In this document: piece after piece, positions 9,641-52,216 of the stretch
How the letters are laid out: the number at the start of each line of letters is the position of its first letter
Position numbering within the stretch: position 1 is the first letter of the stretch
The notes under the pieces: generated by a model
The model's input: the letters and a program-made list of their open reading frames with translations, nothing else
Told to the model about the DNA's origin: nothing
Databases searched by the model: none
Translations under genes and position numbers: made by a program
DNA from: Ligula intestinalis
Taxonomy: Eukaryota > Platyhelminthes > Cestoda > Diphyllobothriidea > Diphyllobothriidae
Direction of reading: 5' to 3'
Assembly: GCA_036362985.1 (NCBI GenBank)
Contig: JAYGXS010000003.1
Coordinates: forward strand, 70,555,989-70,619,988
Length of the DNA stretch: 64,000 bases

Positions 9641-10405
9641 GAGAAGAAGAAGACGACTCCATCGCTGGGACAATATTTTTATTCGTCTGAAGTTTCGAGG
9701 TCCGGCGCGGATTCATCATCAGAGGCGTAACCAGATAGCAATAGCAGATACGGGTAGCGAGTGCACAGGAGTTTGCAGTATTTATAGGATACAGTAATGA
9801 CTGAAAACATATAAGGACAACTAACGATAATTGCCTTCTTGCACGTTAACAGTTTTTTGAACGGCATGCGGGCTCTGACCTGCTGACTTTTATTCGCGTG
9901 GTGGACTGGGACGTGATGATTGCTCGGCCATCTGGCCCTCCGATGTTTGCGTAGGATGACGCGGTGGCCTGTCCGTTCCCCAAGTGGTGACTTGCTTCGG
10001 TCAAATTGTGTATGAACACCGAACATGGATTGGGCAAATCGCTGCACTTGTTGATGGACCATGACTCAAGTAATTATCGGCTCACCCGATTTTCACCTCT
10101 TGCGGTATTTCGGCCTCATCAAATTTGAATGTTTGGCTGGGTCTTGTCGAATGAGCCGCCACTTGAGAATTGGTATCATTTCGCAGCACTGCGGCCGCGT
10201 AGTCGGCTGTCCGCGTCTTGAGAAGTCTGCCAGTTTCTCCGACATAGTTGCTTTGACCGCAACTGCATTAGATCCTGTAGACGACTCCAGGAGTTTCTTG
10301 CCGTGGCAGTGGGTCTTTCAGTGTCATTATCTGACGCCTTGTGGTTGCCTCCGGTCTGTGTGCGACTCCAGTGTACACTGTTTACCTTTAAACGTAGTAG
10401 TTTGA
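9641..10405 (-). mobile_element. Penelope-like element, lineage A, 5'-truncated copy
   Basis: The minus strand reads the end of a PLE polyprotein followed by its 3' terminal repeat. A GIY-YIG endonuclease signature (VVYRI, then CGQSNYVGETGR) lies at about 10290-10190, broken by an in-frame TAA at 10268-10270. A downstream tract shared with copies at 35860-36393 and 38531-39105 includes a CTATAAATA box. A hammerhead-like motif (9685-9726) and an AATAAA-type end close to GTCTTCTTC follow. GIY-YIG fused to reverse transcriptase is the hallmark of Penelope elements. The reverse transcriptase itself is not in this copy. Confidence 0.78.
9685..9726 (-). ncRNA. hammerhead-ribozyme-like motif (PLE lineage A)
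   Basis: Minus strand: GCCT, CTGATGA, a stem-II-like segment with UCC/GGA pairing, GAAAC, TTC, AGAC. Stem I can pair U-A, C-G and G-C around one mismatch, and the cleavage triplet position is UUC. This matches the order of a type I hammerhead with a minimal stem III. Activity is unknown. Confidence 0.5.
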
Positions 10406-10892
10406 ATGTCTATCCTGGGTATCCAGAGGGTTTCAAGTTCGGAGCGATTTAGTAAACAAAAAATTGACAGCACTTTTTTGGCAATAATCTCTTCGCTCAT
10501 TTTAGTTGAGTCACAGTATGGCAGACCCGCTGGTCTCCTGGCATGTTGTCTAATTCAATTTCTTTCCCCTCCTACAAGGCACACCAATAGTTAACTGAGA
10601 CCTTATTTCCGTTGTGCTTCCAAGAGAATTAAGCAGCTAACTAGGTCCCGTGGTATCTGGACGAGGGGGGCTGGGGTGGGGAATTTTGAAACTTCAGCTT
10701 TATGCAAGGGTAACGCGTTAATTTCCTTTTACGGTCATTAAAGCTTGGATGCGTCGGTACTCCCCCGTTGACAATTTTATGGTCAACTTACTTTAAAATT
10801 CTGAAGTCGTGTACCAAATTACTACGCGACATCAGACATTTTTGATGAAAATTGGGAATAGAAGTGAATATGCGAGTTCCAGGAACCAGTTC
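10406..10892. other. no gene recognised
   Basis: May hold decayed upstream PLE sequence next to the copy ending at 10405. No motif was recognised. Confidence 0.25.
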
Positions 10893-10929
10893 AGAAGAAG
10901 AAGATGCGACCACTAGAACAGGCGTTTTA

Positions 10930-10975
10930 TTTTCCTGACGTTTCGGATTCTGTCGGGAATCCTTAATCATAGGTA
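10930..10975 (-). ncRNA. degenerate hammerhead-like motif, lineage B left arm
   Basis: Minus strand has a perfect 6-bp stem II (GGATTC with GAATCC), then GAAACGTCAGG. The first core block reads ATGATTAA where CTGATGAT would be expected, so this copy is probably inactive. Confidence 0.4.
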
Positions 10976-11174
10976 ATGGTAGGACAGTCTGAGTCATGCG
11001 CAGATAGGGCTGAAACATGCACAGATTGCACGGTATTTAAATTTCATAGCGGTCATCCGGCTACAAGAGTGGCTAATTATAGTACGCACGCAGATGACCG
11101 CTACTAACGGTTAATACCATGCAATCTGTGCACGCTTCATCCCTATCTGCGCATTACTCAGACTATGCTGCCAT

Positions 11175-11216
11175 TACATATGCTTAAGGATTCCCGATGG
11201 AATCGGAAACGTCAGG
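11175..11216 (+). ncRNA. degenerate hammerhead-like motif, lineage B right arm
   Basis: Plus-strand partner of the left-arm motif: GGATTC, six-base loop, GAATCG, GAAACGTCAGG. The first core block is eroded. Confidence 0.35.
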
Positions 11217-11255
11217 AAAATAAAATTCTTGTTCCAGTGATCGCATCTTCTTCTA

Positions 11256-11971
11256 AAAAGTGTAAAGTGCGTATTATTTAAAACTGGTCTTTGTTGCATT
11301 TAGTCCGGCCAACGGATGTGTTTTGCTTCATGAGGAAATTCAAACAAACCAGCTCGTAAGATCTTCGCTAGCGGGGATGGGCCCTGACTCGACGCAACGC
11401 GTCAGATGCAACACAATAACGAAATTTCTGTAGTTCTATTGGCCCAGGCACCCATATCAACCTTGAGTCTACGCCCATAAAGGCTCGAGTAGACTGACTT
11501 ACTCTAAGCTAGCGACTAATTTCTGAGGAAATTAAACATTCGGCAAACATATTTTTCAGTAATTAATTATAGGGTCTGCACAATAGTGAAATTATGGGAG
11601 GTGGACAGAACTTATAAATGCCTTACGGTGAAAAGTTTCTGCTCTCATACTGCCCACATGACGAGGTCGGCATTTCGAGGCCACTGGGAATGGGAGAATT
11701 AGGGTAGGCTGTGAACAATGTTCATGGGTCGAGTTCGCCGAATTTACTTCTCACGTTTAACGTGGGAATATTCGCAGAGGTTAGAATTCAAAGCTGGCAC
11801 TGGGGTGTGGATAGGGGTTGTCGGAGGCAAGAGTAATCGTCCACTACAGAAGGTTTCCCAAGTTAAAAGTCAGGTAAGACCAATTAGGTTTGACAGTATA
11901 CTGTAGGAAACGAGCTAACAAAGGGATCAGCAGAAACAAATCCTTTGATGTGTGTGTGCTCTGTGCCTCTA
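11256..11971. other. no gene recognised
   Basis: Non-coding by eye. No match to the other repeats in this window was seen. Confidence 0.25.
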
Positions 11972-12365
11972 TCGCAGGGGGTTAAGTGTGGTTAACCCAG
12001 CAACTGCGATCTTCAGACCATGGTTACCTAGTGCAGCGAGAAGTCGATGAAGGCCAGAGTAGTAGGAAGAGTTTATTGTGTGCACAAAGGAAAGAAGAAT
12101 AGATGGAAGAAGTTTGACTTGGGAGAACTCAACCATCCAGAAGATTGACCGGGTCCCAAGTGCCAGTTTTGAGAGCAGTCAGGCCAGTAGACAGAGAGGA
12201 AGAGCGTTCATTGGCTAGGTCGGCCTGTGATTGGTTGGACACCATGCGGGTGTACAGCGTGTGGGTGGTCCATGTCTCGCGGCAGGAGGTCTGACGACCG
12301 CAACGACCTTGAGGTCTAGACAGATTGAGGTCACGACAGGAAGGGCAGGCATCGTGCGGGCAACG
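11972..12365 (-). repeat. short interspersed repeat family M, copy 1
   Basis: Best read on the minus strand. The terminal stem-loop tract is at the left (about 11972-12020) with GATCGCAG pairing to CTGCGAT around TTAACC/GGTTAA. The body matches copies at 15525-15920 and 25985-26485 (shared stretches near 'cctcaatctgtctagacctcaagg'). No RNA polymerase III boxes or protein frame were recognised, so class is unresolved. Confidence 0.7.
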
Positions 12366-12459
12366 ACCAACTACACCTCTGCGCAGGCTTGCGGGATCCG
12401 GTGACGCCCTCCATTCAATAAGGAAATGGTTCTCTTCGGTTGGCTCGAGTTCTCACGAT

Positions 12460-12640
12460 AGTAGCTTGATCTGGAGACGGGTGTAGGCGACCGGTGCATG
12501 GGCACTCGTCGGTGGCGGTGAGTCTTGACACATGCTGGCCTGCGCGGAGTGAGTCATATGCAGCATGCAGCTAGTCGGCCAATGCCGCGGGCGGCAGCGC
12601 AAAGCCTGACAGCAAAGAAAACGTGTCACCGAAGGGACTG
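12460..12640 (+). repeat. repeat block shared with 62640-62780
   Basis: A tract with 'ggtgcatg', 'ggcggtgag' and 'gagtgagtc' recurs in the same orientation at about 62690-62770. It may be another body segment of family M. Confidence 0.4.
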
Positions 12641-12869
12641 ATTTCAGGACCGTCATAGGGGCGGGGGGGGGCTGGGTTACTCAATTATAGGCCGAGCCCC
12701 CTGCAGCTGTGTTATGCAGCGACAGAACATCTGCGAAAGGCACGTGTCCCGGCTTTTGGATAGTGCCTATGCTGTCAAGGTGGTGTATTAGGCAATTGCC
12801 ATATAGAACATAAATCCCCAGCAACCACCTTAGCTTACTTAATTGTACTTGTTACGGCTGTGATCATGT

Positions 12870-13470
12870 CTGATCTAGCTGGCCTCGATGATGTCACCGA
12901 CGATACCTCTCCATGCGTGATGATTGGTGGCAGCAGATCTTGAGAGCTCTACCCACTCTTTTCTCCAGCGCCGGAGACCGAATACTGAAGGTCCAAGAAC
13001 CACTTTCATGTCCTGACGGACTGAGTCGAGCCAGGTTTTGAATTGACGCCCTTTTTGGACGTTCCCATTTAGGTAACGGTTTCAAGCGGAGGGCAGTAGC
13101 ACTGAGCTACTGAGGTTGACGACGAAGAACGTGTCCAAACCACCTCAGTCGTTGTTCCTGAATAGAGTGGGATATCCTTGTGATTTTGTCGCTGCAAGTG
13201 CGGACTGCCTCGTGTGAGACGAAGTCGGTGTATTTCACTCGAAGGATACTCCTCAAGCTGTAGTGGTAAGACTTCCAGCTTCTGTTTACCTTCCACGCCC
13301 ATAGCCCAACATTCGCATGCGTATAGAAGAACGGACCGTACACATGTACGGTGCACGCGGATCTTTGTGGCGATAGAAATATCGCATTGGATCCGTAAGC
13401 GCTTCGAAGGCTGGAGAAAACTCCTCGTGCTGCGTTAATTCGGAAGAGAATGCCGTCTTCTGTGCTTGCT
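12870..13470 (-). pseudogene. RTE-like LINE reverse transcriptase, C-terminal remnant
   Basis: Minus-strand frames together give the end of a non-LTR reverse transcriptase: an N-terminal 'INAARGVFSSLRSA' stretch, a Leu-Leu-Tyr-Ala-Cys-Glu-Cys-Trp motif, 'ILRVKYTDFVSHE' and 'RLRWFGHVLRR'. The last part lies in another frame (12894-13085). At least two frameshifts break it, and the catalytic YxDD box lies upstream and is absent. The RTE-like label rests on the RWFGHVLRR-type ending. Confidence 0.75.
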
Positions 13471-14146
13471 TGAAAGTATGATGTGCTGTGGCAAGATTTA
13501 AAGCAGCTGTCTATTATCAAGCAGGCTGTCAGACTGTTGTTCTAAAAATGAACTATATTTTTTTGTTTTGGGTGCACCAAAGTACAAGTTAAAAAAACCC
13601 GCTAGCGCCTCGGGCGTTATATCGAGGACAAGTTGCTATCTCGACATCAGAATGATTACCCAAATCACAAGTCTGAGAAGACTGAATAAATTCGCACAAC
13701 TTTACTGCTCAAGAAGATTGACAGTAGCTGCTGCAAGCACCGCATACAGAAATCAGTCGAGTCGGTGTGAAAGTGTCTATGCGCGCAGGCCTAGCAAAGT
13801 TTCCAGCCATCAGCCAATAAGGAAAGGGTGTAGCTGTTGGCGTCAAAGCTCTTGAAAAATCGATTAACTGCAGACGAAGGTGTGTCGAAAACGGGGGGTG
13901 CACAAGTACACGAGCGCACAGAGGTAAGAGGATGTGTCAGCACTGGGCGCGCGGACAGACAAAAGTTTTGGCGGATGAGAAGGAGGTGAATACGCGCAGC
14001 ACTACCGAATTCTTGCTGACACAGTAACACCCATTGGAATCTGAGTGTCTTCTGCCTGACTCTTCAGCCCACCTGGTTTGTCGTCTATCTGCGAGGATTT
14101 GAATGTATATCGCAGTCGCTTTAATTAATTAGGGAAGGCTCTCGAT
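13471..14146. other. no gene recognised
   Basis: Short frames only; nothing familiar. Confidence 0.25.
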
Positions 14147-14450
14147 GCTGCGACCTTCAGGCCCGGTTCTGTAGGGGAAGAGAAGTGAGATGCCAGGGGG
14201 AAGAAATGGTTTATTCTGTGCGGAAGTAGTGAAGAAAAGGTGGGAGGGGATTGACTGTCGGAGGAGCGCACGTATTGCCGCGTCCGAAGTGTGTGAGCGC
14301 GGGAGTCTTCATAAGCGCCCCCAGCGAGGTCGTGTGCGAGTCAGCCTCAGGCAGGTGATTGGCCAAACGGGATTGGCGTTGGCCTACACGTGAGCGCGTG
14401 CTACTAGTTGCGAGGAACGAAGGGTTGAGCATTGGACGTGGCCTTCGGCC
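14147..14450 (-). repeat. family M, copy 2
   Basis: Starts with the 'gcgaccttcaggcccggttc' end and continues with the 'gaagagaagtgag' and 'tttattctgtgcgg' stretches typical of the family. The outer half of the hairpin is lost. Confidence 0.6.
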
Positions 14451-14499
14451 ACTTAATGCACATAGTTAGTGTGGAGCGTGTATGGTCTGACGTCCGCCC

Positions 14500-14576
14500 T
14501 GCAATACGATTCTGTTGGTACGGGTCTGAATATGTCTCTGATGATGAATCCGCGACGGATCGGTGGCATACGAAGT
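14500..14576 (+). repeat. PLE lineage A fragment with start of hammerhead core
   Basis: Contains GTCT, CTGATGATGAATCCGCG (14534-14554) as in lineage A copies, then diverges. It ends in atacgaagt (14568-14576), which recurs at 15167-15175 just before the missing second half of the motif. Confidence 0.5.
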
Positions 14577-14857
14577 AGTCCGGCTGGATAATAGATGATA
14601 GAACGTATCCTTATAGCTTTAAACTAGTAAATATGATAAGGTGAAGAAGGCCAGCGTTTAAGGAATATTTTAATTAAGTGTAGAAGGAGTACACTATGAG
14701 GGATGGGTAGGTGACTTCCAGACAAGTGCAGTCCAGCCAAGAGTGGGCCGGAATCAGAGTCGCATTCCGGCGGGTGTAGTCGACGGGTCCGGATGTCTAA
14801 AACCAGCCATGAGGTTCCCGGTTCCGGGAGTGTCTTTCCATAAGCAATCCTCGCAAT

Positions 14858-15017
14858 AAGGTCCTTTATCCTTTATCCTTTACCCCCTTATCTGCGCATG
14901 TCTCAGACCTGTTTACGATTACCTATGACTAAGGATTCCCGACAGAATCCGAAACGTCAGGCAAATAAAAAAATCTTGTTCCAGTGATCGCATCTTCGTC
15001 TTCTGAAGGTCCTTTAT
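14858..15017 (+). mobile_element. short PLE lineage B insertion with 12-bp target duplication
   Basis: The word aaggtcctttat occurs at 14858-14869 and 15006-15017. Between them is a 5'-truncated lineage B end: an eroded core, stem GGATTC/GAATCC, GAAACGTCAGG, AATAAA and the CTTCGTCTTC terminus. The left junction carries extra cctttat units, as if synthesis stuttered there. Confidence 0.65.
14928..14962 (+). ncRNA. hammerhead-like motif, lineage B solo copy
   Basis: Perfect 6-bp stem II (GGATTC/GAATCC), then GAAAC, GTC, AGGC. The 5' core reads ATGACTAA instead of CTGATGAT, so catalysis is doubtful. Confidence 0.4.
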
Positions 15018-15166
15018 GGACCGGCCTTGAAACGTATTTGGCAAGTTAAGACAGACAGAGGGTGACCTTGACTGTAGGTTTGCCACCCTCAAATGCGCGT
15101 GCTGTTGGATGCGAGAGCCAAAAACGTGGCCTACACCAGCCGCGTGCGAGGAAAGTATGACTTAGA

Positions 15167-15245
15167 ATACGAAGTCACTACAGAGCTCGAAACGTCAGGC
15201 AAATAAAAGTATTGTCCAAGTAACTGTGTCATCTTCTTCACGATT
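15167..15245 (+). repeat. PLE lineage A 3' end fragment
   Basis: Begins atacgaagt, then CGAAACGTCAGGC, AATAAA and a CATCTTCTTC terminus. It looks like the second half of the element whose first half ends at 14576. Confidence 0.5.
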
Positions 15246-15524
15246 CTGTTGTTGTCGTTGCCTTCTGTCCCCTGGAAAGAACGAAGACATGTCGGTACAG
15301 TGACTGCAACTACATGGGAAGGAGGGGAAGTTGGGTAAAGGTGACGTGTATGGTGCCTAAACAGTACACAGGAACAGGAAAGTCCGGCCCACTTATAATA
15401 GGTCATCTTACGATGAAATTCAGGGAGGGTAAACATTCCTGTCTTAAAATTAATACTAGGATGAAATTCAAGTGCAACTTTAACCTGCACCCTGACCTTA
15501 CCTTAAGCCTGTAGTGGTCATTGC

Positions 15525-15920: not shown

Positions 15921-16004
15921 GGTGACATTCCGACGTGATCGGTCTACAGTTAGCACGACCCCAAAACCAAATCGTGAACATAATTCTGAACCTAACACCC
16001 ATTT

Positions 16005-18568: not shown

Positions 18569-18840
18569 ATGGGCAAGCAAATGAACCCAAGTCTGATTAG
18601 ATTCACGGCTAGCGGTGAGCCTTCTAACTCAACGGTAGAGCTTTGGCAGCGCAAAAGCCTTCCCTGTTGTGTGGGTTCGACTTCCATCGAGGCTGCGAGT
18701 TTTTCACAATTGGGTCAACCGAGTGATTATCTCGGGTTATCCACCCCCGGGATTGTTTATGAGTGTCTGATGATGGCTAAAAAGCCAGAAATTGCCATTC
18801 CGGTCCCCCTAGTCTTTGTCGTTTCCACTCTATATATACG
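18569..18840 (+). repeat. tRNA-derived SINE, plus copy with tail
   Basis: Box A-like TAACTCAACGG (18625-18635) and box B-like GGTTCGACTTCC (about 18674-18685) are spaced as in tRNA genes. The segment continues into a tail (18750-18840) that also occurs at 5775-5900 on the other strand. Confidence 0.65.
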
Positions 18841-18849
18841 TGGAGCTTT

Positions 18850-20745: not shown

Positions 20746-20750
20746 GGGAT

Positions 20751-22350: not shown

Positions 22351-22359
22351 CTGAAAGCG

Positions 22360-22650: not shown

Positions 22651-22654
22651 ACGA

Positions 22655-23505: not shown

Positions 23506-23510
23506 ATTCG

Positions 23511-31850: not shown

Positions 31851-33767
31851 TTAACGTAGTTCCATTACTGGCAACGCCACATGTTCTTCATCACAAATAG
31901 GGAGTTTAAAGTATTTACATATATTTCCCTAATTAAACTGAACCGAACATAATTATTTAAGAGGTTCTCAAATGCGGTTTACCTACATAAGGGACACCAA
32001 CATGTAAGGAAGCACAAGGCGAAGCCGGGCTTCCACGCTAGATGTCAATACATGCGTTCTTTGGAATGATACAGAGGAGACGAGCAAGTAAAAGCGAACC
32101 ACATTGAGGTCCCAGTGCGGTTAAATGCACAGGAAGAGAGAGCCTGTCTAACTCAGAGGTGGATTCTCCTTCCACATTGCAATCTCGCCTTCTCTCTATC
32201 ATCGCCCTCAAGCCAACGAAGAATCTTTATAGGGTCAAGTATTAAGGAATACGGTAAAAACATCTTTAATAATTACATATTTTCTAATTAAATAGTAAAA
32301 TTCCATGTTTCTATTTTTTGAGAGTTGAATGGATTTATTGTATGTTCATTATTTTAGATGGGCGAAATTCCTTTCACAAGATGAACGTTTAACATAACGA
32401 GCGCGGTGCCGGCACGGATTAAATTCGTTAACTGGGGCTCCACTTTTCATCAAATAAATATAACACGATACACTTTTGAATATCTGAAAACCTTAAAAAC
32501 TTATGGGCCACTCCCAGATAGGTACTTCCATGGGGAGCTGGCACTTAATCAGATATCCACTGTGTTCAAATAGGTTGGATAGTAGACTTAGCAAGACAAG
32601 GCCAGCCAGGCAAAATAGTGACTACTAACCACTATTTTATGGAGATGCAATGGAATTTTGTGAGGAGGTACTGCGCTTCCTTTTCATATTTATTAACCTG
32701 TGGTTGATTTTAAAAGGATCTATTTGAGGCATCTCATTTTTTCCTAACGAAACTGCTGTGGCTTACATGTCCCTTAGAAGTCTTCGTGATGACACCTACA
32801 TCGATGCGTTTTTAGAAATATGGTCATTGCTATCGCTATTTTCACCAAGAGAAATTATGTGGGGAATGAAGGACTGTTAAGTATCAGACCCATCATTTAC
32901 AGGCCTTTTAATTGAATGTTAAACCGTAAGCTTAGAGTCCAACAACGTCAAAGCAAATCACAAAAATAGCTCCATTGCAGATTGTGCCTTTGGCAACGTT
33001 AGTTTACCGTTTTAGGTAGAGCGCGCGTTGTAAAAAAATAAGGGTGGTTTTGCAAAAGCGTGATTATGAGATGTTACAAATCGGGTTTGTCTGTAAAGTA
33101 TTTTTTCTGCTCAGAATATCCGTTGGCTGGGAAGCTAGGACTAGAAGAAAATGACCCTCGCGCAACTTAATGGTTTTAATCGCTCCCAGGGTAATGGTGG
33201 CTTGGTGTAATACCGAAGCTGAATGATTCACCAACGAGAGGCGAAAACGTGGGAAACAGATCGAATTAGCAATCTGCGGTTGAAAAACGTTTTGCGGTAT
33301 ATCAGGAATAGAGTAAAATTAAACCAGTGTAGGAATTATAAGAACGTAAAGCAGACTATTTCTATCAGAATATACGACAAACTTCAAGAGTAAAATGGAC
33401 TATTTTGTCATTTAAAAAATAAAGTATGACAAAAATGCAGGAGATGCTTCAGTTTTATGTCATCAGATGGAAAATTTTTTTTCTGATTCGTACGAAGCTA
33501 ATTAGATGGTTTATAATTACATTTTGTGAGAATTGGGTCCAACCGAACGATTGCTTGCTACTTACTTATTTAACCATATTTTCAATTAAGAAGAAGAAAT
33601 GTGTTAGAAAAGTCGATAATTCATAACGCGCATTTTCACTAACCGATCCATTTCGGTGCGATTGCCCAAGCCACCTGTCTTGAAACGAAATCCGTCAACC
33701 TCTACGAATCACATGCCAATAGATGCTAACTGTTGTAAATTTATGCCAAAGCAGAGATCTCACCACA
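31851..33767. other. no gene recognised
   Basis: AT-rich. May contain the decayed rest of the Helitron, but no helicase motif could be read. Confidence 0.3.
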
Positions 33768-33804
33768 TATGTAGAAAAGGCAGTTTGTGAATCGATTGTT
33801 TATT

Positions 33805-33848
33805 ATGTGAATTTTCGAAGCTGGAGACCCCACTTCGTCTTCAGATGT
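33805..33848 (-). ncRNA. hammerhead-like motif, lineage D 3' repeat
   Basis: Minus strand: CTGAAGA (33844-33838), one extra base, stem II GAAG/CTTC around a longer loop, GAAA, then AATTC with a self-complementary AATT in the stem III position and TTC as triplet. Stem I pairing is weak in this copy. Confidence 0.45.
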
Positions 33849-33954
33849 AGAGAAAGGTTAATGCAGAAAACAGCTAACAGTTAACATCTAAAAATCGTAG
33901 GAAAATTGATAATGTCGTGGCGTGGCGCTTACGCCAGTACCCTGTTGTAGTGTT

Positions 33955-34640
33955 TTTCATTCTGTTCGGATTGGTTTGCGTCTCGCCCATTTCAGCTTGA
34001 GGCTTTGGTATGACGATGCAAACTCGGTGTACCTGTTGATGCATTGCGCGTCTGAATGCATAGCTTCGAGAACTTCGTGGCCTTTCTTGTATGGACAAGA
34101 GCCAACAATGCGGGTTTCGTCCCATGCAAATTGGTGTCCAGTTTCCAATGTGTGCATGGCGACTTCAGACAAGTGGTATCGCCCCTTTACCGCTCGTTGA
34201 TGTTCGCGTAAGCGTGTGGAAGATGATCTTCCTGTCTGTCCGCAATAAAATGTGTTGTAGCCGTCACAAGGGATCTTTTAGGTGACTTCTTTTCTGCCCA
34301 AGTAATCAACCCTATCCTTGGGATATACGAGTTGATTTCGTAGAGTATTCGTCGGTTTGTGCGCCACATGGATTTGATGTTTCCTCAGGTGTCTTTCAAC
34401 GAGTTCAGGCACGTTCTTAATATATGGAAGCTTTCGGAATCTTCTTGGATTGGGCACCTGATTGGGACAATCTAGTACCTCTTTATTGTGTTTTGGCTGT
34501 TGTCGTCTTATGCATCGGCGCACGAACTGTTTGGGGTAGCCGCTTTGTGAAAACAATTTGACCAGGTAATTTAGTTCGGCTTGGTAGAGTTCAGGGCTAG
34601 AACAACTTGCCACGCCACGGCATTATCGATTTTCCTTCGA
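33955..34640 (-). pseudogene. PLE GIY-YIG endonuclease C-terminal remnant
   Basis: The minus-strand frame from about 34613 runs through '[18 protein letters not shown]' and '[12 protein letters not shown]', hits an in-frame TAA just before the GIY-YIG block, and continues in the same frame with 'GYNTFYCGQTGRSS' and 'HQRAVKGRYHLSEVAMHTLETGHQF' to 'SYQSLK'. GIY-YIG nicks target DNA in Penelope retroelements. The reverse transcriptase domain is missing (5' truncation). The single stop appears to replace the conserved Tyr of the YKIPC stretch. Confidence 0.82.
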
Positions 34641-34686
34641 TTTTCAAATATTAAATGTTAGCTGTTTTTTGCATTCACTTTTCTCT

Positions 34687-34730
34687 ACGTCTGAATACGA
34701 AGTGGGGTCTCCAGCTTCTAAAATTCACAT
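34687..34730 (+). ncRNA. hammerhead-like motif, lineage D inverted repeat
   Basis: Plus-strand partner of 33805-33848: CTGAATA, extra C, GAAG/CTTC stem, then TAAAATTC. The GAAA block is mutated to TAAA, so this copy should be inactive. Stem I (ACGT with ACAT) pairs better here. Confidence 0.4.
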
Positions 34731-34768
34731 AATAAATAATCGTTTCCCAAAGTGCCTTTTCTGCATAA

Positions 34769-35639
34769 TTATACTTCTTGGGATGCCAATTTTCCAATTA
34801 CGCCTTTGTATGAGTCTCCAAGGGAGAACACGACAAGAAGAGCGTAAAGCAGAAGTCCTTTAGCGTACTAAGGACAACATAATTAAGGCAACAAACGCGT
34901 GTACAGCATGTCCATCTGGCCAATCAGATACTGTCGTGGCACGAGTAACGACATGATTGGCTTGTGACTCCATGGCTAGCTTGTCAGAGTCTTAGCTTGG
35001 CCGCAGCTTTAAATTTTAAATGATTGATTAATTGATTGATTTGCAGTTTGCATTTGCCGCGTGTATTCGGATCAATAGCCTGCCATAAGCGCGGCTCGCT
35101 GCCTGCCTGTTCGCGTGTCTGTAACGTCTGCTCCTAGCACCCACGACTCTTATTCGCGAAGCATGAGGCAGCGCGGAGTTTGGCGTTCCGTCTCCGCACA
35201 CACAGCCCAGTCTTAGCAAGGTACTACCGTTGGTACCTTGAACCTTGATGGCTAAGTTCATACCGGCCTAAAAATAGTAAGCCTGTAATTTGAGGGAAAG
35301 GTACTAACCACCGCCCTAAGTCAGCTGACAGTTTACGTTCTTTGTAGCGGATTCACCTCAGGCTAGGCGCGCAGTCCTCCTTATAATGGAGCGTCGCCTT
35401 GGAATGCGACACAAACACACACAGACGCACATGCCCCAGTTAGCATATCGGGCGCACAGATAGCGCAATGGACTGACCGTAGAATCACAATCCAACAACC
35501 GGCAGGCCGGTCGGCGCGGCCATTGCGTCGTCAGACGATGCCTCGCTCAGGGCACGTTAACTACGCCATTCATTTGGGTAGGGGGTAAGTCAAGCTAAAA
35601 CCTTTTTGGAACATAAGCGAATGCCGCTTGAGAGGTAGG
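34769..35639. other. no gene recognised
   Basis: No frame or repeat recognised. Short 'attgatt' repeats occur near 35022-35040. Confidence 0.25.
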
Positions 35640-35852
35640 TGCGGCTTTATTTTAAATGTTAACATCAAAATTTTCAGCGAAACACGGCCCCATTCACGGT
35701 GAGCAGGGGATAAGGTAAGGTAAAAGGTCATAGAATACTCAAGGTTTAAATTTTTACATGATGTGCACATCTGTTAGTGAGACAGGTCAGCTTTTAACTT
35801 TTGAATTTCCATTTCTTCGCAGGGGAGGCAACGTGCTAGGAATGGGAGTATA

Positions 35853-36400
35853 AAGGACAATCGAACATGCGAGTCCCAGGAAGTGGCCTCACATGGCCAA
35901 CCATTCAACTTTGATGAGGCCGAAATGCTCGCACGAGGTGACAATCGGGTGATTCATGCTTCATGGGCCCCCAACCCATAAACAACTGCAGCGATTAGCC
36001 CGATCCATATTTGGTGCTCAGACTCGAGTTCACCAAAGTAAATCTCCGCTTGGGGAACGCACAAGCCACCGCGTCATCCTACGCCAAAATCGGAGGGTCA
36101 GATGGCCGAGCGATCATCATGCCCGAGTCCACCATGCGGGATCAAAAAGTTCAGCAGGTCAAAGCCCGCATGCTGTTCAAAAAACTACCAACATGCAAGA
36201 AGGCAAGTTCCGTTAATTTTCGTTGTATGTTTGCATTAATGACTGTATCCTATAAATACTGCAAACTCCTGTGCATACGCTATCCGTATCTGCTACTGCT
36301 CTCTGGTTATGTCTCTGAGGATGAATCCGCGATGGACCTAGAAACGTCAGGCGAATAAACGTATTGTCTCAGTGATCGAGTCGTCTTCTTCTCAGAGTAT
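35853..36400 (+). mobile_element. PLE lineage A insertion inside LINE family B
   Basis: Bounded by gagtata on each side (about 35853-35859 and 36394-36400). The 534-bp insert is the 5'-truncated 3' end of the element also seen at 9641-10405, with TATAAATA, a hammerhead-like motif (36311-36352), AATAAA and the GTCGTCTTCTTC terminus. The uninterrupted LINE sequence is provided by the other copy at 19611-20745. Confidence 0.75.
36311..36352 (+). ncRNA. hammerhead-like motif, lineage A
   Basis: GTCT, CTGAGGA, a stem-II-like segment with TCC/GGA, then GAAAC, GTC, AGGC. Stem I GTCT/AGGC forms four pairs (one G-U). It keeps the CUGANGA and GAAA blocks and a GUC cleavage triplet. It is the best stem I of lineage A in this window. 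Confidence 0.55.
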
Positions 36401-37159
36401 AGAGCGCTGATATGTGATTTAAGGCAAGCCATATGACAGAAGCTTCGACACAGACTTCGCAGTCATTAGTTCAGAGTGGAGAGGGTGAGCGACCTCACTG
36501 AAGATGCGATCAGCAAAATCCCTGATCGTTTTAAAGTGTCTCTGTGTTGTAATATCACCTAAAATATAGGAAACGCCGGCAGCTGAAGAGAGCATTCGGA
36601 GGATACGTTTAAAATAACTAGGTCTTTTTAAAGTAAGACTGGAAAAACTGGAGAGCAGTAAACAATGAAACGGAGAACGCAAGCATGTATAACTCGCCAG
36701 ATTAGGGCCTGCGGTGTGCGATCTGAACGCAAACGGTGGATAAAATATAAAAATGTTTACAGATTTTAATAAGAGAGCCTTCAATATGAAGAGTAAATGA
36801 GAGGTTAGATGCCAGAGTAAGACCAAGATACCCGAAAGAGGATACCTTACTGGGTAGCATATCAGTGGATTCAAGACTGGGAGAGGGTTGCAATCTAAAA
36901 ACACACTGGATTGACTTCTGGTCACAAAGTAGGTCGCCATTTGCTGACGACTATACTGAGACCTGATCCAGGCCATCTTTTAGTATGTGAAGGTGTATCT
37001 GACTTTTGAAAGAATGACCAACAACCGTATCATCAGCAATTCGAATAAACAACTGTTCGCTCGGCAATCGTAGGTCATCAGTTTGCGGAGGATGAAGAGG
37101 TGAGTAGAAAATTTAGACGCTTGGATAACTCCACAGTTGTTGGGATTGCAAGCTGTCAT

Positions 37160-37310
37160 TGCTCAACAGAGGTAAAGATTCCTTATCGACATAACCACAG
37201 TAACAAAAACCAAGGGGTTGTGTACTGCAGGGCCGGCGGTACAAGGGTTAATATAGGTGGGACATATCAGGGGGAAGGAAAAATATAGAGTGTATAAAAT
37301 TAGTAAATAA
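37160..37310. repeat. interspersed repeat S, copy 2
   Basis: Matches 22371-22485. It lies directly upstream (in element sense) of the LINE family B copy. Confidence 0.45.
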
Positions 37311-37604
37311 TGGGCACAAGTATTCAAAAAAAACTAATGGCTTCAGTAGCTTATGTAGCCTCACTCATTGATCCCTACAACCTGCATGTTTTCCTACGAA
37401 AACGGTGGTTATCGGGTTTTATGGGTGGGGAATTGGGACACGCAGTGGAATATACTTTAATAAATGCTAAATGCATTTTTTACTGTATTTAGAAGTGTTG
37501 TTGATTTATATCTGTAGCTTTTCCTAAGCTGTATTATCATTGAACTTATTGCGGAAAAACCCGTTTATCCAATGGCAGGTTTTTTGAATTTCCCGAAAAA
37601 TTGA

Positions 37605-37735
37605 AATTATGGTTGGGAGGTCGTCTACTTCAACTAACTTGTGGTTCAACTTACCGTTCTAGAGTTAGATTAATATAGTACACGGCGCGAAGCACCGCGC
37701 ACACCTTCAATTTTTATGCGGAACAACCTGCTCCC
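37605..37735 (+). repeat. direct repeat with 39950-40080, copy 1
   Basis: Shared stretches include 'ggtcgtctacttcaa', 'cttaccgt' and 'gcgaagcaccgc' in the same order. Non-coding; class unknown. Confidence 0.55.
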
Positions 37736-38530
37736 AGCGGCTGCGCGAAGTAACTTCGACTACATTTTTTCAATTTACAATTACTTCTAAAAGTTTCATT
37801 CTCTGCCTATACTGTTTCCCCGCTCCACAAAATTCTATAGCCATCATTTTGCAGGACAAAATGCTGGGACTAAGGGTATATGAGTGGGTCTACATAAGCT
37901 ACTTTTGCCAACCTAATTAATAGCAACGAAAAAACGTGCGATCATTAAAAATAAACTACAAATAAGTATCAGCGAAGCGAAAACAATTGAGTTAACCGCC
38001 GCGACATAAATAAGAGCAAATCAGTAGCCACTGGAAAGAATAACAATTATGAACCATGAACTCAGCAAATATTACCCACGATTTGGCCAAAATTAATTAA
38101 CCAACATGGAGGTGAACAGCGCTATCCACGAGCCTATGCGATCAGTTGATTTGCAAACATACTAGATAGTAGCAGCGAAATGTACGCGAATGCGTTAATT
38201 TATAAAGCAGGAAAAAGGACGTAGTCTCTTTTTGCAAATAAAGTAAGCATTATTTCAAGAATCTGGTATCCTTTGACGCTGTAGCCAGTCGTAAGGCTTA
38301 CGTCAAATCCCACTGAAAACAACAACTGGTCTAGTATGTTAATATTAAACAAGGAATGGATAATAAACGAGGAACAAACCTTAAAATGGATGCAGTTAGT
38401 CGAAAACAAGGGAGTCGGCCAAATATCGCCTGACTTAGACAGGGGAACGATGCATGTCCGATAACGCCACACGTGTGTAGGGCGAAGCCAGACCTCGAGG
38501 AGCATGTGTGGTGGGAGAAGGGACGACCGA
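37736..38530. other. no gene recognised
   Basis: AT-rich, nothing recognised. Confidence 0.25.
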
Positions 38531-39105
38531 GAAGAAGACTCGATCGCTGGAACAATACGTTTGCTCGACTGACGTTTCGACATTCGTCGCGGATTCATCA
38601 TCAGAGGCATGAGTAAGAAACAGTGGCAGAAACGGGTGAGGTATGCACAGACTTCTGGAGTATTTATAGGATGCAGTCATTACTGCAAACATACAGTGAC
38701 AATTAGCGTTAATTGCCTTTTTCCGCGTGGGTAGTTTGTCGAACGGCACGCGGGCTCTGACCTGTTGAAGTTTCATCACGGGCGGTGGGCTCGGGCGTGA
38801 TGATTGCTCGGCTGCCTGGCTCTCCGGTTTTGGCGTAAGACGATGTGGTGGCCTGCCCGTTCCTCAAGTGACGAGTTGCTTTGTCCAAATGGAGTCTCAG
38901 AACTGAATATGGATTGGGCAAATCGTTGCAACGATTTGTGCAACGGTGCGTTTCAGTGGCCCTCAGCGCAGTCGTGTCTATCTTGTATGCGAGGGGAATT
39001 GGGTCAAGGGTGTTAAAGTCCCCAGGCACAAACAGCTCTTTTTCGAGGCAGTGTTCAATGAACAAGAGAAGGCGGCGGATAGGATTGTTCGGTCTTCAGG
39101 TTAGC
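38531..39105 (-). mobile_element. PLE lineage A, third copy, 5'-truncated
   Basis: Minus-strand match to 9641-10200 and 35860-36393. It holds the region after the GIY-YIG block ('CNDLPNPYSVLRL'), a CTATAAATA box, a hammerhead-like motif and the AGTCTTCTTC terminus. Confidence 0.72.
38567..38608 (-). ncRNA. hammerhead-like motif, lineage A third copy
   Basis: Minus strand: GCCT, CTGATGA, a variable stem II segment, GAAAC, GTC, AGTC. Both core blocks are intact. Stem I has one mismatch. Confidence 0.5.
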
Positions 39106-46004: not shown

Positions 46005-46368
46005 GCGGGCTTGTCGTTACTAGCTCCTTACGAAGTGCATATGTGAACGCTCTTCCTGACTATATCAAGTCGAAATGCACTTTGGGAATGCTCACTGCTG
46101 CCGGCCTCTGTAATAGCCAATCACAGGCCACCTCCCACAGGACCTCATATGACGACTGCCGAGCAAACATCACTTCAGACACCGTCCGCTGACTTGCGGT
46201 TGTGCGGCCGTCTGAAAGTCAATATCTTACTGCCTATTCTCCCATTTATTTTGTACAAAATATACTCTTCCTATCATTCTGGCCTTCCCGTATCTTTTTC
46301 TTCTTCTCGAGGGACCGCGCCCGAAGATCACATTTGCCTAGGTTAAAATCACTTAACCCCCTGCGAGA
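46005..46368 (+). repeat. family M, copy 12
   Basis: Third body subtype, marked by 'ccaatcacaggccacctc' and 'gacgactgccgagcaaac', shared with copies 13-15. The hairpin end is at about 46325-46366. Confidence 0.65.
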
Positions 46369-48605
46369 GCCTCTCAAACAAGTTCCTCAGCATTTCATTA
46401 AATTATCCTTGGAGATTTGCTGATAAAGACGGATAAGGCGGGTAGCCGCTTCTGGCTTGGTAACATTTTCCGTGAGCCGTGCTTGTATTTCAGTCCGAGA
46501 ATGCGAGAGATTTGACTCTAAAGTAGTCACCGCGATGGAGAGCTGAAGCCAACTGCGCTTTAGTCCCCTGTGATACACACTAAGGCCTTTTTTGGTTGCA
46601 ACCCGATGCATTCATACTGATAGCAGTGCACGCGCCTTTCTGCAACTCTGAACAGTGTATACTCGAGACACGGTCAAAATCACATTAACAGTCAGCTTTA
46701 TGCCTCCTGTTATTAGACTAGGGTGGCACATTCAACGTGCGTATTTCTGTACATTTTAATTTGACTCCTTGAGCTAGAGCTGTGCTCAGTTGCCTCCTGG
46801 CAAAACTTGTTTAACCCTCAATGAGCATACCGTTTCTTTTGCTTAGGTACGGTTACCCACTGTTTTCTCACAGTGCACTCAGGTGTTACAGTCACATGTG
46901 CACGGCTCGGCATCCTCCGCCCCCCAAACAAAGCTGAGTTTGGTTCACGTTGAGAGTGCCACCGGTGTTGTCGAGAGTTCGTACATTTTTACAAACTAAT
47001 TGAACGCATGTGCTCATTGGAGGCGCTAAATAGATTAAAATTCACATCGTTTCGATTGCACTGTAAGCAGTAAGTCCCACCTGTACAACTTCTATCGATT
47101 TCAAAGGCGAACAGGACCTTAAACCAACTATCGCTTTCCTCCGTCTAAATTTTACCAATCGCGAAGGCGGGTGGGAGCGCAGGCCGTGGATGAGTCTTGT
47201 CGAAAACATACTGAAAGAACCGATTAATACGCTAATCATTGAAGTCGCTCCAAGTGGTATTGGCGTGCTTATTTGAGCCTCAGTGTATAGTTCATCGAGG
47301 CTTTACAAGGCAGGGGTTTCTGTCACGTGCATGACTGCAAATCCCCAACCTACAAAGGAATTCTCTTTCCAAGGTTAATTGATTTAATTTTTTAATAAAT
47401 TTAATTTTGCTACCTCAGTTGAGGCTGAATACAGGCAGGCAAATAATAGGATCAGTATCGTCGGTTGTTGTGAGACAATCATACTCAGGGTGGTTCTACT
47501 TAGACATTTTTTGACGGGGGTCGAATATTGCCATTACGAGTGGAGGCCTCAAACGCGGCTCAACTGACAAACATCAAACAAATGAGGAATTTACTGCAGG
47601 AAGTTTGATCTATGGGGGTGGGAGTGGTAACTAGTGTGACAATGTACGGTTTAAATAAGGGAACGTCGTGAATATGGAGCATGACTTTTAAGTGCGCCAG
47701 TTTAGTTACGAAGCAGCGGACAATTTTGAAAACCGTGTGTCTAAGAAACTGCCATAAAATGTCTAATGAAGCGCTAGCGACCAGGTTAAGTCAGGTCAGG
47801 TGTTTTAAGAGAAATATAAGTAATTAACTTTGAGCTCCCTCTTGGTACAGAACACTAAATGAACAAGTTCCCGAAACTATAGCCAATGGAAAATGACCAT
47901 TTATATCAAATATTAAAAACGAAAAATTGGCGAACATACGTTTGTTTTCAACAATGTTACTTCAGTTCCTTTAATTTATATTGAAGTGTAACCAAGTAAA
48001 ATATGCATACAGAAGAAAAATGCTTGTGGGTGCAGAGGTTCGGCTTTCGTTACCTGATTATTAGATTATTCATTAAATTAATTAATGATTGTTCAATACT
48101 TGATCTGCACGTCCTACTAAAGAATCACATCGTCTTTCTGGGTTTCATTGCAGATCGATTTTTCATGGGGCGCCAACGCGCCTATCGAAAACAATCTCAG
48201 CATTAATGCCGAAAACAAATGACTAATTGGAGCCGCATTATAGGTCCCTGTCCCAGTTCTTTTTGTTCCACTTAAAGTTGAGCGTCATATTTCCACACTG
48301 CAGTGCTGTCACAAAATACTTGAATCAACAAAGAGCATATTTATGCCGACCGAAAAAGCGTCAGTTGGTTGCTGTTTATACTAAATTAAACTATGTTTAG
48401 CTAAACCCTGTGCATTTTTTACTCGAGGACTGTATATTTTAGCCTGGAGTTTTTTGGTTTGATTGCTAGCTTGTACTGCTGTAAAGAGAGAGTTAAAAGT
48501 TAGGAAAATGAGTTTTACATATTTTGCATCTTCTAAAGGATTAAATTATGGTTGTTTTTGACATCGCGCTTTTCAGCCGTTTTGTTGGCTATCGTATAAA
48601 TTCAG
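46369..48605. other. no gene recognised
   Basis: No recognisable coding sequence or repeat copy. Confidence 0.25.
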
Positions 48606-48810
48606 CGCACTCTGGAAAATCATGTCAAAATTGGGAGTTCCGGAACAATTACCTCCGATCGTAAGACAATTTAGGACTCGTGTCACAGACAAGGAGGCAC
48701 TCGCCAAACGAGTGTTCGCAGAGACCAACGGGGAGAGGCAGGGCTGCCTACCCGCCCACACTCGCTTCTGTCTCATATTCGCTGCTATGCTGATAGACGC
48801 TTAGGGTGAA
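48606..48810 (+). pseudogene. RTE-like LINE reverse transcriptase fragment
   Basis: The plus-strand frame 'ALWKIMSKLGVPEQLPPIVRQF' leads to 'ETNGERQGCLPAHTRFCLIFAAMLIDA', the fingers/palm stretch (usually N-G-x-x-Q-G-C-x-x-x-P) just before the catalytic YxDD block of RTE-like elements. Ends at a stop; too short to function. Confidence 0.65.
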
Positions 48811-51629
48811 AAGCCGCCGTGGAACAACATAAACTACCGAGCCGCCGAGAATATCTGTCACACAAAAGTACATTCGAGAATATTCACGATCAACGCCTAT
48901 GGCCTAATTTTGTCGGAATGACTGCGTGCTTAACACTAAAACGGAAAAGGACATGCAGTAGAGTGTGGCCACATTCTTTTCCGGCTGCTAAACTTTGGTC
49001 TGACCACAACCAACCGTTGTCAAACGGGGACTGCAGTGTCAGCTGAACTTGCTTCACATTAGCCGACAAATTTGCGTAGCGGCATGGGGTGCCTCTATAC
49101 ACCCTTTTCTGCGACTGCCTTTGATGATGGTTTCGAGAGAGAATCCGAAAATTTGGGCCAATATATTACTAGTTCCAGCGATCGCATCTTCTCCTTCTAA
49201 ACTGCTTCCTGGAATTGGATTATTAGCTCCTCTCAGGCGTGTCAATGCCAGTAATACTTATGTGGAGGACAGATGCTTGGCAAAGAAACAAAAAAGGATA
49301 AGTGTCACGCAATCACCAAAACTCCGTTCCAAGTGTTCCACAGTTCTGAATAGTCAGAAAAAGGAACGCGAAACCTCCTTCGACTGTCAGGGGTGTCGAT
49401 GTTACGCAACCTACATGACTCTACTAAGGTGATCGCAAATCAGGAGTGGCCAACTCTTCGGATGAAGGAAGAAGGAACGCACAGAGTTTCAGTCTCATTA
49501 CTATTGTCAGTCCTTTCACTTTGGGCTGAATCATCTTTATTAGATTTTCTCTCCTGTGTGTTGAGGTTGCAGTGTCAGCTTAAAATAATTTGCCTGGTCC
49601 TGTCAACGCGATATCATTCATTCTGACTGCGATATGAGCACTTTGAATACTTGCAGATGAAGATAGAAAAAAATGCCGGAGCCAGGCACATTGTCGTCAC
49701 CTCTCAGAACAAACAGCAGGGCAAAGGTAGTTTAATTGAAGGAGAATATGTACCCTATGCTCCAACATTCTGTCGTACGAAGTCGGTGTTATTAGACATC
49801 TTGTGAGTGGAAAAATAGAAAAGGCATTGAAGAAAATTTGTAGACTTACAGTATTGCGACTCCTGCAAGCAACTTGTGTAAGTTTGTAAAGGTTTGATTA
49901 TTTCTCCCATACCAGCGAGAAAGCATTTACGAAAACTTATAAATAATAATCCGCAACATCAGGCACATTAAGTACCTCAAAGAATTATAAGAAGAACTAA
50001 GTGGTTGTTTAAAAAAATATTTTTCGATAATTTCCAAGTTGTGAAGGCATCAAAAATAGCTATAAATAAGAACAATGAATTCAGATATTTTGTTGAGTAT
50101 AAAACTTAAAGCAACGACTTTCTTTCTATAAAAAAACTTGTCTTCAGTCAAAATATTTTGCATACATGGTAATGAGTTGATAACTAGTTATTTAATATCA
50201 CGGAATAAAGTCTTTTTTCATTTGGCTAGTTTTCGGTGACTTCATTGATAAGTTGATAAATTGCGCTTCTGTTCGACTTTTACATCAAAACTTTTAAAAT
50301 AAGATATAACTAAACAGCAGTAACAGAAAAAACGAGCTTTTGAATATAACTTCCTATGCTGATGGTCATGTAGATCAAATGTGGAAATGCTTCAAAACAG
50401 CACACCACATTTTAGAGCATAAAACATGTCTGATAGATAAAATGCATATTGTTATACCTAAGATTAAAAAAACTTTTCATAATAGGTTACCTCTTTAAAA
50501 ACGTGCTTTTATTGGATATTAAGCTAACGAAATTTTGTGTAAATTAACTTTTTCTAGGGTAACGTCACAGTGAAATTGGAGACTTTTGACAATTTCTTTA
50601 ATTTACCAGAAGAAAAACGATCAAATTTGACTGGAGATGAAAGAACCTACCTTTCTCTTCATAACAGATTGCTTTTCGCTTAAAGGCTTTTATTCCACGA
50701 CCCGTAATAAGCGTGCAAATGCAGAAAAAACAGTCTATATATGTGACCATTTTTTAAAATACTTATTATTCTTCTGTCAGTTCCGTTTCTAAATAACGCT
50801 TGAACGGAACTTCTTGTTTACAAAAAGTATATTTATACCTGACCTAAATGCAAGGAGGCCTTCTTTAATTCTCCTTCGCGGTAACATGTATGACAAGGTT
50901 TGGTTATGAGCAAGGTCAGCTGTGAGGTTTAAAGAAAACGGACGAGACGTTTTTGTTACTGTATTTTGTGCAAAATATTCAGAGAATAGCGAAATATTAT
51001 TTTTATAACTTTTATTGCTGCTTGTTTCAGAAAAAAATGCGATTCCTTAAACCTCGCTTCACTTCCATTTGACCAACTTCTCACAAAATTTCCCAGTTCT
51101 GGAAAGTATTATTACTCCACCTTTTTTACTTATAATGAAATTCTTCCACAGCGCAATGTATATTAGAAGAAAGTTTGATTCTGTCTTTCGTTATAGCATA
51201 GGGAATTCCTTTAGCATAAACTTACTCATTATTTAGCCAAAATGAGTGCATTTTTCCCCTCATTAATTTTAACTTAGAGAGCAGTTTCCAAAAATAAAGC
51301 CCTTCTTATTATTTAATCCACTCAGTTGATCAAAATAACCTGTCCATACATACGCTAAACTACCAAGTTAAATTTCGTCATGAAAGTTGTTTGCAGGACT
51401 CGCAGGACTGTACCTGTAACGTGATAAAGAGTGGTTGAATGTGTTTACCGCGGCCGCTATATAGCCACAAACCAAAGCACATAAATCGAAACAAAACAGC
51501 AAAAAACGGCATTTAATAAATAAGAGGTATTTGAATAAACCGGCAAACCCAAGTTTGTGACAGCCCAGGAACCAGCGGGAGGAATAAATAAAGTGCATAT
51601 GGCAGTAATTGAAGTACATTTCATTGCTT
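48811..51629. other. no gene recognised; AT-rich core 49.6-51.6 kb
   Basis: At 49125-49200 a diverged PLE lineage B end is visible (TTGATGATGGTTTC, GAATCCGAAA, GATCGCATCTTCTCC). The AT-rich remainder shows no frame over 90 residues and no familiar repeat. Confidence 0.35.
49118..49200 (+). repeat. diverged PLE lineage B end with near-complete hammerhead-like core
   Basis: GCCT, then TTGATGA, an extra T, GGTTTC/GAATCC stem II (one mismatch) and GAAA. It differs from the canonical 5' core only at the first base, and so shows what the eroded lineage B cores probably once were. Confidence 0.5.
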
Positions 51630-51683
51630 CATCCCCGGAAGAGGAGTAAGAAGAGACGATTTCTGGGACCGAAGTTTATTTTG

Positions 51684-51723
51684 GCTGACGTTTCAAAAGA
51701 GTGCTCGCCTCCATCGTCAGAGC
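51684..51723 (-). ncRNA. hammerhead-like motif, lineage C left arm
   Basis: Minus strand: GCT, CTGACGA, extra T, GGAGG with CTTTT as stem II (wobble pairs), GAAAC, GTC, AGC. Core blocks intact and stem I is 3 bp. Confidence 0.55.
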
Positions 51724-52176
51724 GTGGTGTCTGTACTCCTGTTCGCGTCAGATGAATGTGTCTGACCAGTAGCTTTGCCTAATGCCTATGTGTCAATCGA
51801 TTACACCAATCGATTTTCGTGGCTGTTTGAATTGAGCGCGCTAGAAAGTTCGTCCTAGACTGGCACACTAAAGAGAGCCATGGACCTTCATCCCGTCTAC
51901 CAAGCGCTCCGCAAAAGGCTAACATTAGCTCAGAACGGAGCAATAGGTCGGGCGGAGAGAGATGAGCAGGACCGACAGCCGGCAGCCACGACCAAAGAGA
52001 GTGGAAACGCTCACGAGACAGAAAAGACTTGACACAGCTCATGAAGCCGCCCGTGAGGGCGCGAGCAATTCAAGCGGCCACAAAAATCGATCGGTGCAAT
52101 CGATTGACACATGGGCATTAGGCAAAGCTACTGGCCGGACACATTCATCTGACGCGGACAGGAGTTCAGACATCAC

Positions 52177-52216
52177 GCTCTGATGATGGAAGCGAGCACT
52201 CTTTTGAAACGTCAGC
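52177..52216 (+). ncRNA. hammerhead-like motif, lineage C right arm
   Basis: Plus strand: GCT, CTGATGA (52180-52186), extra T, GGAAG/CTTTT stem II, GAAAC (52206-52210), GTC, AGC. Compared with the left arm, A-to-G changes in stem II keep pairing by wobble. ACGT between GAAA and the cleavage site is self-complementary, as needed for dimer-type minimal stem III. Confidence 0.58.

Follow-up and report, generated by a model that had tools for sequence, protein, structure and literature searches.

Hammerhead-type ribozyme motifs that very probably lie across the start of the open reading frame in Penelope-like elements of the tapeworm Ligula intestinalis

The pseudo-long terminal repeats (pLTRs) of Penelope-like elements (PLEs) carry minimal type I hammerheads, possibly dimeric, as relayed in two papers (PMC7761336, PMC6155905) reporting Cervera and De la Pena 2014 and Lunse et al. 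2017; the role of these hammerheads is called a mystery in a review (PMC7761336). PAc, a PLE (Poseidon) of Anolis, is described in the relevant sections of its report as having an open reading frame (ORF) that begins at stem II and an RNA whose cleavage site lies 26 nt 3' of the start codon (PMC11167929). Perreault et al. 2011 (PMC3088659) describe natural variation of the core that includes U3-A8, and about 10% of the S. proliferum and S. erinaceieuropaei genomes is attributed to Penelope (PMC8166898). The DNA considered here is a 64,000-nt stretch of the Ligula intestinalis genome (contig JAYGXS010000003.1, positions 70,555,989 to 70,619,988), referred to as the window. The repeated motifs within it, together with their relatives elsewhere in the genome, are very probably minimal type I hammerhead ribozyme motifs of PLEs that overlap the 5' end of the ORF of the element carrying them.

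An initial annotation of the window had proposed six hammerhead-like motifs, and all are present, displaced by only a few bases from where it put them. The pattern CTGANGA-N(6-30)-GAAANNTC has exactly six matches in the window (100 shuffles: mean 0.23, maximum 3), and four of the six motifs lie on the minus strand. At least six further sites (10937, 11180, 14925, 15157, 34691 and 49113) had been overlooked. R1, a covariance model made from 33 copies that lie on a different contig, finds 10 sites at E ≤7e-4, namely five of the six original motifs (not that at 33805) and sites beginning at 10929, 11172, 14917, 15155 and 49113; it was trained on the same repeat families, and its matches in the window are recognition and not independent proof. 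The motifs are as follows.

9689-9722, minus strand: family A hammerhead motif with C3-G8 core, AUG at A9-U-G10.1 and decayed stem III (ACTT); R1 E 3.6e-06
10937-10970, minus strand: A3-U8 core motif (ATGATTA), AUG = A3U4G5; R1 E 4.8e-13
11180-11213, plus strand: A3-U8 lineage motif with A6 mutated, other arm of the pair; R1 E 1.2e-05
14925-14958, plus strand: A3-U8 core motif (ATGACTA), best R1 score in the window; R1 E 5e-14
15157-15196, plus strand: degenerate A3-U8-like copy with longer stem II loop; R1 E 0.0007
33809-33844, minus strand: family C hammerhead-like motif with AATT as stem III and little left of stem I; no R1 match
34691-34726, plus strand: degraded second motif of family C, other arm; no R1 match
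36315-36348, plus strand: family A hammerhead motif, stem II partly decayed; R1 E 1.6e-05
38571-38604, minus strand: family A hammerhead motif; R1 E 8.1e-08
49113-49162, plus strand: degenerate copy from the covariance model, flanks within the coordinates; R1 E 1.4e-05
51687-51720, minus strand: family B hammerhead motif, left arm of a head-to-head pair; R1 E 7.8e-10
52180-52213, plus strand: family B hammerhead motif, right arm, codon 3 beginning the ORF start MEASTLLKRQPK..; R1 E 2.2e-10

The order of parts originally read (stem I, CUGANGA, one base, stem II, GAAA, stem III, NUC, stem I) holds, individual copies being damaged. Other details stood in part. A self-complementary 4-base stem III occurs in five of the six motifs, that at 9685 reading ACTT, and an AATAAA, said to follow every motif, follows four (9685, 33805, 36311 and 51684) and is absent after 38567 and 52177; in family A it reads as coding sequence (..A-N-K..). 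Stem II, described as still pairing, pairs fully in the C copy alone; the A and B copies have impaired forms of it. That of family A is bulged, with 2+4 pairs in well-kept genomic copies and further damage in the window; in family B the window stem II probably decayed from the 6-bp stem present elsewhere in the genome. Stem I is imperfect in most window copies, the one at 33805 keeping just the innermost pair. By inspection, stem III is only a 4-nt palindrome (ACGT, AATT), so that a stem III helix would need a dimer. The window copies are mostly truncated, decayed relics.

Genome-wide counts were made on the 644-Mb assembly with the reversed pattern as control. The hammerhead pattern with C3-G8 had 10,322 matches (control 151), and a relaxed pattern that excluded only G at base 3 and left base 8 free had 15,545 (control 112). 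At the same fixed gap as this relaxed pattern, A3-U8 was found 3,646 times (control 6) and U3-A8 1,001 times (control 21), against 260 (control 12) for the single change A3/G8 and 221 (control 7) for C3/U8; this comparison covers these four forms. With a variable gap the A3-U8 count was 4,242 (control 157), and the fixed-gap figure is preferred because the variable-gap count contains false registers, for example at 1157389 and 8499158, which are C3-G8 copies of a 37-nt family shifted two codons in. The core order CUGANGA ... GAAA ... NUH is present in window and genome alike, and the A3-U8 and U3-A8 lineages exchange bases 3 and 8 jointly.

Covariation was examined in 33 rows chosen from 90 loci, over nine pairs of stems I and II with the 3-8 pair excluded. 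Paired cells amounted to 87.2%, compared with 69.4% after shuffling, and the covariation score was 0.599 (shuffled 0.267, sd 0.025; none of 500 shuffles as high), slid versions of the alignment scoring at most 0.201. Both sides had changed at eight of the nine pairs. Inclusion of the 3-8 pair, which the search patterns imposed, raised the score to 0.660. Among 20 cluster representatives 174 of 200 cells were paired (2000 shuffles: mean 136.6, maximum 149), this test including the 3-8 pair imposed by the pattern. Stems I and II are accordingly kept paired by compensatory changes between lineages.

The core pair itself was followed among the matches listed, which are the first ~100 places in contig order. 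With base 8 left free in the search, bases 3 and 8 were C-G in 56 of the 100, A-U in 28, U-A in 6 and U-G in 2, that is, Watson-Crick in 90 and U-G in 2; the mismatched remainder was C/A (6), A/G (1) and A/A (1). At least two core-pair exchanges are implied, to A-U and to U-A, copies of the same lineage not being independent.

The motif sits at the start of the PLE ORF and, where the N-terminus is readable, always in the identical frame, codons 1 to 3 being C3U4G5, A6N7G8 and A9-x-G10.1. Among the 100 matches listed 89 have AUG in at least one of these three in-frame codons, a figure that is a description and not a test, the pattern nearly excluding AUG in other frames. The ORF begins inside the motif, and the base inserted after A9 keeps the frame. 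This extra base after the first core block had been noticed at the outset, its membership in the ORF frame had not. Among the 100 matches listed, the position separating A9 from stem II is occupied by U 47 times, by A 31, by C 20 and by G 2 times; the base there is often the U of AUG. In copies among the matches listed whose codon 2 is ACN, the silent third base is Watson-Crick with base 3 in 39 of 43. At the other end, the 3' core AAA CGT CAG encodes KRQ, so the ribozyme-like motif and the first dozen PLE codons share nucleotides; KRQ is present within the first 40 residues of 19 of the 120 protein relatives listed (e.g. MMDSSRNPKRQANKALVPAIVSSSS). Counted on the 34-nt motif with an A9-U-G start, the predicted cut falls after nt 28 of the ORF.

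In the A3-U8 lineage, the largest of those with a non-canonical core, most copies among the matches listed read ATGAYTAAGGATTC..GAATCC GAAACGTC, A3U4G5 is itself AUG, and codons 2 and 3 are usually without one. Three sites of this lineage lie in the window, 10937-10970, 11180-11213 (with A6 mutated) and 14925-14958. Neither this lineage, nor that with U3-A8, nor the head-to-head arrangement described below figured in the initial annotation.

That these are PLEs follows from their coding sequence. In one copy (L047/L111) an ORF runs from the motif through reverse transcriptase (RT) motifs (recognised by reading), is interrupted once, by a stop at codon 463, and extends to the start of the endonuclease, where a run of N begins. 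L111, from about 1197370 of contig C1, is the PLE copy with the longest ORF among those retrieved, and its reading ends in this long run inside the endonuclease. A second motif was not found downstream in this copy, where the N run intervenes. The 462-amino-acid (aa) piece has no Pfam match at 0.01; RVT_1 or PF28514 is found in its relatives, whose identity to it reaches 69-87%, and one of them (P0039) carries both RVT_1 and GIY-YIG, each just below the curated cut-off. The organisation found is thus that of a PLE, one ORF with a PLE-type RT and a C-terminal GIY-YIG endonuclease, the window itself holding endonuclease fragments only. The nearest named relatives of the genome are those of the tapeworms Schistocephalus, Sparganum and Spirometra. 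The associated features in the window are these.

10085-10267, minus strand: piece of the PLE GIY-YIG endonuclease, upstream of the family A motif; matches the tapeworm PLE protein P0039 over 54 aa at 78% identity; no Pfam match of its own
33960-34277, minus strand: 106-aa fragment resembling the PLE C-terminal endonuclease, upstream of the family C motif; matches PLE protein P0007 over 104 aa at 36% identity; no relevant Pfam match of its own
36249-36260, plus strand; 9777-9788, minus strand; 38659-38670, minus strand: TATA-box-like CCTATAAATACT 5' of the family A motif (3 matches, 0 in 100 shuffles)

The three TATA-box-like copies are homologous and therefore not independent; the sequence is a possible pLTR promoter. 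With stem I/II and 3-8 covariation, linkage to the PLE ORF start and endonuclease fragments beside the A and C copies, the original assignment of hammerhead-type motifs to several PLE lineages is supported.

Several observations weigh against a hammerhead ribozyme. The check proposed at the outset, a search with Rfam models, found no hammerhead as run: the Rfam 15 hammerhead models had no match in the window (gathering threshold; E up to 10) or in 10 of the 90 loci (E up to 10). The number of both-side changes was matched by 14 of 500 shuffles and that of pair types by 59 of 500, both less extreme than the covariation score. The search patterns fixed GAAACGTC, so that the conservation of this block is imposed. 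The A3-U8 lineage may represent a single evolutionary event, so that its copies are not independent. The single change C3/A8 is as frequent as U3-A8 (6 and 6 among the 100 matches listed), perhaps from CpG decay, and for the U-A form a single change is accordingly not rare in this sample. CUGAYG can pair with CGUCAG, and monomers folded freely often adopt that hairpin (ViennaRNA, 10 copies). As to PAc, the sections of the report that deal with cleavage state that protein had to be present for its hammerhead to cleave, and the normal insertion of cleavage-dead PAc RNA in vitro further opposes a necessary role in insertion (PMC11167929).

The hairpin just mentioned leads to one rival explanation, in which CUGAYG with CGUCAG, extended by stem II, forms a plain long hairpin that serves as a protein- or RT-binding site and no ribozyme exists. 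Its helix is present in the monomer folds of several of the 10 copies and is paired in 84.3% of alignment cells, but no both-side change occurs at any of its pairs, base 8 pairs with the fixed C in only 18 of 33 rows and breaks the helix in the other 15, and among the 100 matches listed G8 is kept in 59 as against Watson-Crick pairing of 3-8 in 90. We consider this explanation very unlikely; the same hairpin may instead be an inactive, regulatory or minor fold competing with the ribozyme. Still harder to credit, and in our estimate extremely improbable, is that conservation reflects the PLE protein N-terminus (M..KRQ..) alone, the likeness to a hammerhead being a by-product. The copies do share a frame, their common motif lengths of 34 and 37 differ by three, and KRQ recurs among the protein relatives listed; yet stem I has its 5' strand outside the ORF, and this strand covaries with the 3' one, and the silent third base of the codon 2 Thr tracks base 3 in the 39 of 43 copies noted above.

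Ribozymes inherited from an active ancestor and now inactive in the present host, the copies being neutral relics, would account for the many core and stem lesions of the window copies, and the published PLE can integrate in vitro without being cleaved (PMC11167929). This has somewhat more to be said for it than either of the foregoing but is nevertheless unlikely, as the three Watson-Crick forms of the 3-8 pair and the varied intact stem II helices indicate that the fold was kept while lineages diverged.

The insertions have a recurrent form. Close neighbours (≤2.5 kb) among the matches listed are divergent, minus then plus, in 33 of 40 cases, with 3 convergent and 4 on the same strand, and 46 of 255 farther neighbours are divergent; three sets of 100, 98 and 100 places were counted, the 98 being what was left of one set once two nested rows had been omitted. 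With the relaxed motif, adjacent motifs inside 3-kb loci were divergent in 12 cases, convergent in 5 and on the same strand in 7, a weaker bias. A metazoan retrozyme reading was not supported, direct repeats of ≥40 nt being absent in 33000-39000 and 9000-12000 and close neighbours being divergent as just counted. Three PLE lineages in the window take the form of head-to-head inverted pairs with the hammerheads facing outward.

10896-11254: head-to-head unit of the A3-U8 lineage, arms 10896-11057 and 11093-11254
33768-34767: head-to-head unit of family C, arms 33768-33926 and 34609-34767
51638-52262: head-to-head unit of family B, arms 51638-51841 and 52059-52262

The twelve divergent pairs of the relaxed count were inspected for target-site duplications. 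Four (860031, 632071, 2017389 and 3169608) are flanked by exact duplications of 12-14 bp that are not simple repeats, and their tails of 83/45, 43/81, 42/81 and 44/84 nt are in each case one short and one long. Two have AT-repeat matches (tails 42/81; 81-101/50), one GAA-repeat match and one match inside the element were set aside, and four have no match of ≥9 bp. Beyond the predicted cleavage site, A3-U8 copies end at 44-51 nt in 12 of 26 cases and at 79-91 nt in 10, the other four ending at 21, 22, 55 and 59 nt; the optional tail of 30-40 nt at PLE insertion ends is thereby found in this lineage. All six A3-U8 pairs with both ends measured have one tail of the short and one of the long class. 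By the homology measure, the four U3-A8 pairs divide evenly, both tails being long in L088/L089 and L096/L097 and one long, one short in L103/L104 and L105/L106, and the tails of L028/L029 are 48 and 48 nt, as against 42/81 by the AT-repeat match; this measure gave no end for L037, L083, L091, L099 and L107 and was confined to copies with a 34-nt motif. Since in PAc each of the two strands is cut and extended, with RT starting at two sites, priming from both strands would be the natural reading of head-to-head pairs, with the two start sites presumably used unequally between strands.

A mechanism may be proposed from the hammerhead interpretation. RNAs spanning two element copies would be cleaved at C17, some 28 nt inside the ORF; the form that cleaves is probably the dimer, since stem III (ACGU) is a 4-nt palindrome. 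Cleavage would separate the start codon from its ORF, and because the start codon is removed in this way the uncleaved RNA would be the mRNA; the cleaved RNA, perhaps re-ligated, could serve as template for retrotransposition. The copies fetched nearly always extend beyond the cleavage site, which suggests a template that is uncleaved or re-joined there; copies starting at the cut would evade the patterns used. Insertion would proceed by target-primed reverse transcription with two start sites, ~43 and ~82 nt beyond the cleavage site, and both target strands would often prime, yielding head-to-head pairs inside one 12-14 bp duplication. Cleavage might thus act as a built-in switch between mRNA and retrotransposition template; dimerisation, or the protein encoded by the element, might open this switch in competition with the CUGAYG/CGUCAG hairpin. 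The joint reading in which core and codon co-evolved (C3 to A made AUG, G8 to U kept the pair), cleavage is the mRNA/template switch and two-strand insertion splits the RT start sites between strands is tentative, and we regard it as possible and no better than that.

Other features of the window and of the loci examined were noted. An ORF of 709 aa in a single piece (7046-9175, plus strand) with CBL N-terminal domains and a RING finger is 85% identical to Schistocephalus solidus and Sparganum proliferum proteins and represents an intronless CBL gene or a retrocopy beside PLE fragments. As judged by reading, a single ORF of 1191 aa (758-4333, minus strand) resembles a retrotransposon gag-pol, its motifs being those of protease, RT, RNase H and integrase, and 56907-59594 (minus strand) holds non-LTR retrotransposon ORFs with endonuclease and RT. 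Two tRNA-like sequences above the Rfam gathering score (L057:174-253, L090:1013-1093) are tRNA genes or tRNA-derived repeats near PLE copies. A second hammerhead-like repeat, of D-type (CTGATGACGGCTAATAAGCCAGAAATGGCCATTCC type), is present at 5823-5861 (minus strand) and 18767-18805 (plus strand), its pattern having 2,035 genomic matches (control 0); it is not claimed as a hammerhead, the copies among the matches listed being too alike for covariation and the innermost stem I pair mismatched on inspection. A motif scan of viral contigs gave 20 stretches (L001-L020), near the rough chance expectation.

With over 15,000 motif matches spread over many lineages, three Watson-Crick forms of the 3-8 pair and three places for AUG, this one genome amounts to a natural mutagenesis experiment. 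The variation points to a fold kept by selection, places cleavage where translation would be disabled and names the RNAs for testing. That PLEs carry hammerheads, minimal and perhaps dimeric, is already on record in the accounts cited above (PMC6155905, PMC7761336). The A3-U8 core and its use as a start codon seem to be new: "A3-U8" went without mention in the papers listed by a full-text search, among which neither Cervera 2014 nor Lunse 2017 was included. The presence of three core pairs in a single genome and the unequal-tailed head-to-head pairs are new as far as the literature was compared.

Among described systems, the core variants of Perreault et al. resemble the present ones in exchanging C3-G8 with compensation, and differ in that U3-A8 is named in the relevant part of that paper and A3-U8 is not mentioned there (PMC3088659). 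Metazoan retrozymes, as summarised in PMC7229834, likewise have type I hammerheads in a mobile element, but are short non-coding tandem repeats, whereas the present motif lies in a coding PLE and its close copies are mostly inverted. The hammerheads reported from PLEs agree with these motifs in being minimal, of type I and possibly dimer-acting. PAc, in the sections of its report that concern the element's structure and insertion, shares a minimal hammerhead at the junction of pLTR and ORF (PMC11167929). Unlike PAc, the present genome has many lineages, natural A-U and U-A core pairs, and AUG at three in-frame codons, including A3U4G5. Some of its head-to-head pairs are unequal-tailed, whereas the PAc start site was the same between strands in vitro (PMC11167929). 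In PAc, both target strands are cut and extended and two RT start sites explain the genomic tail, which matches the pairs and tails seen here (PMC11167929), and the head-to-head insertions of L. intestinalis look like the genomic counterpart of that two-strand priming in vitro.

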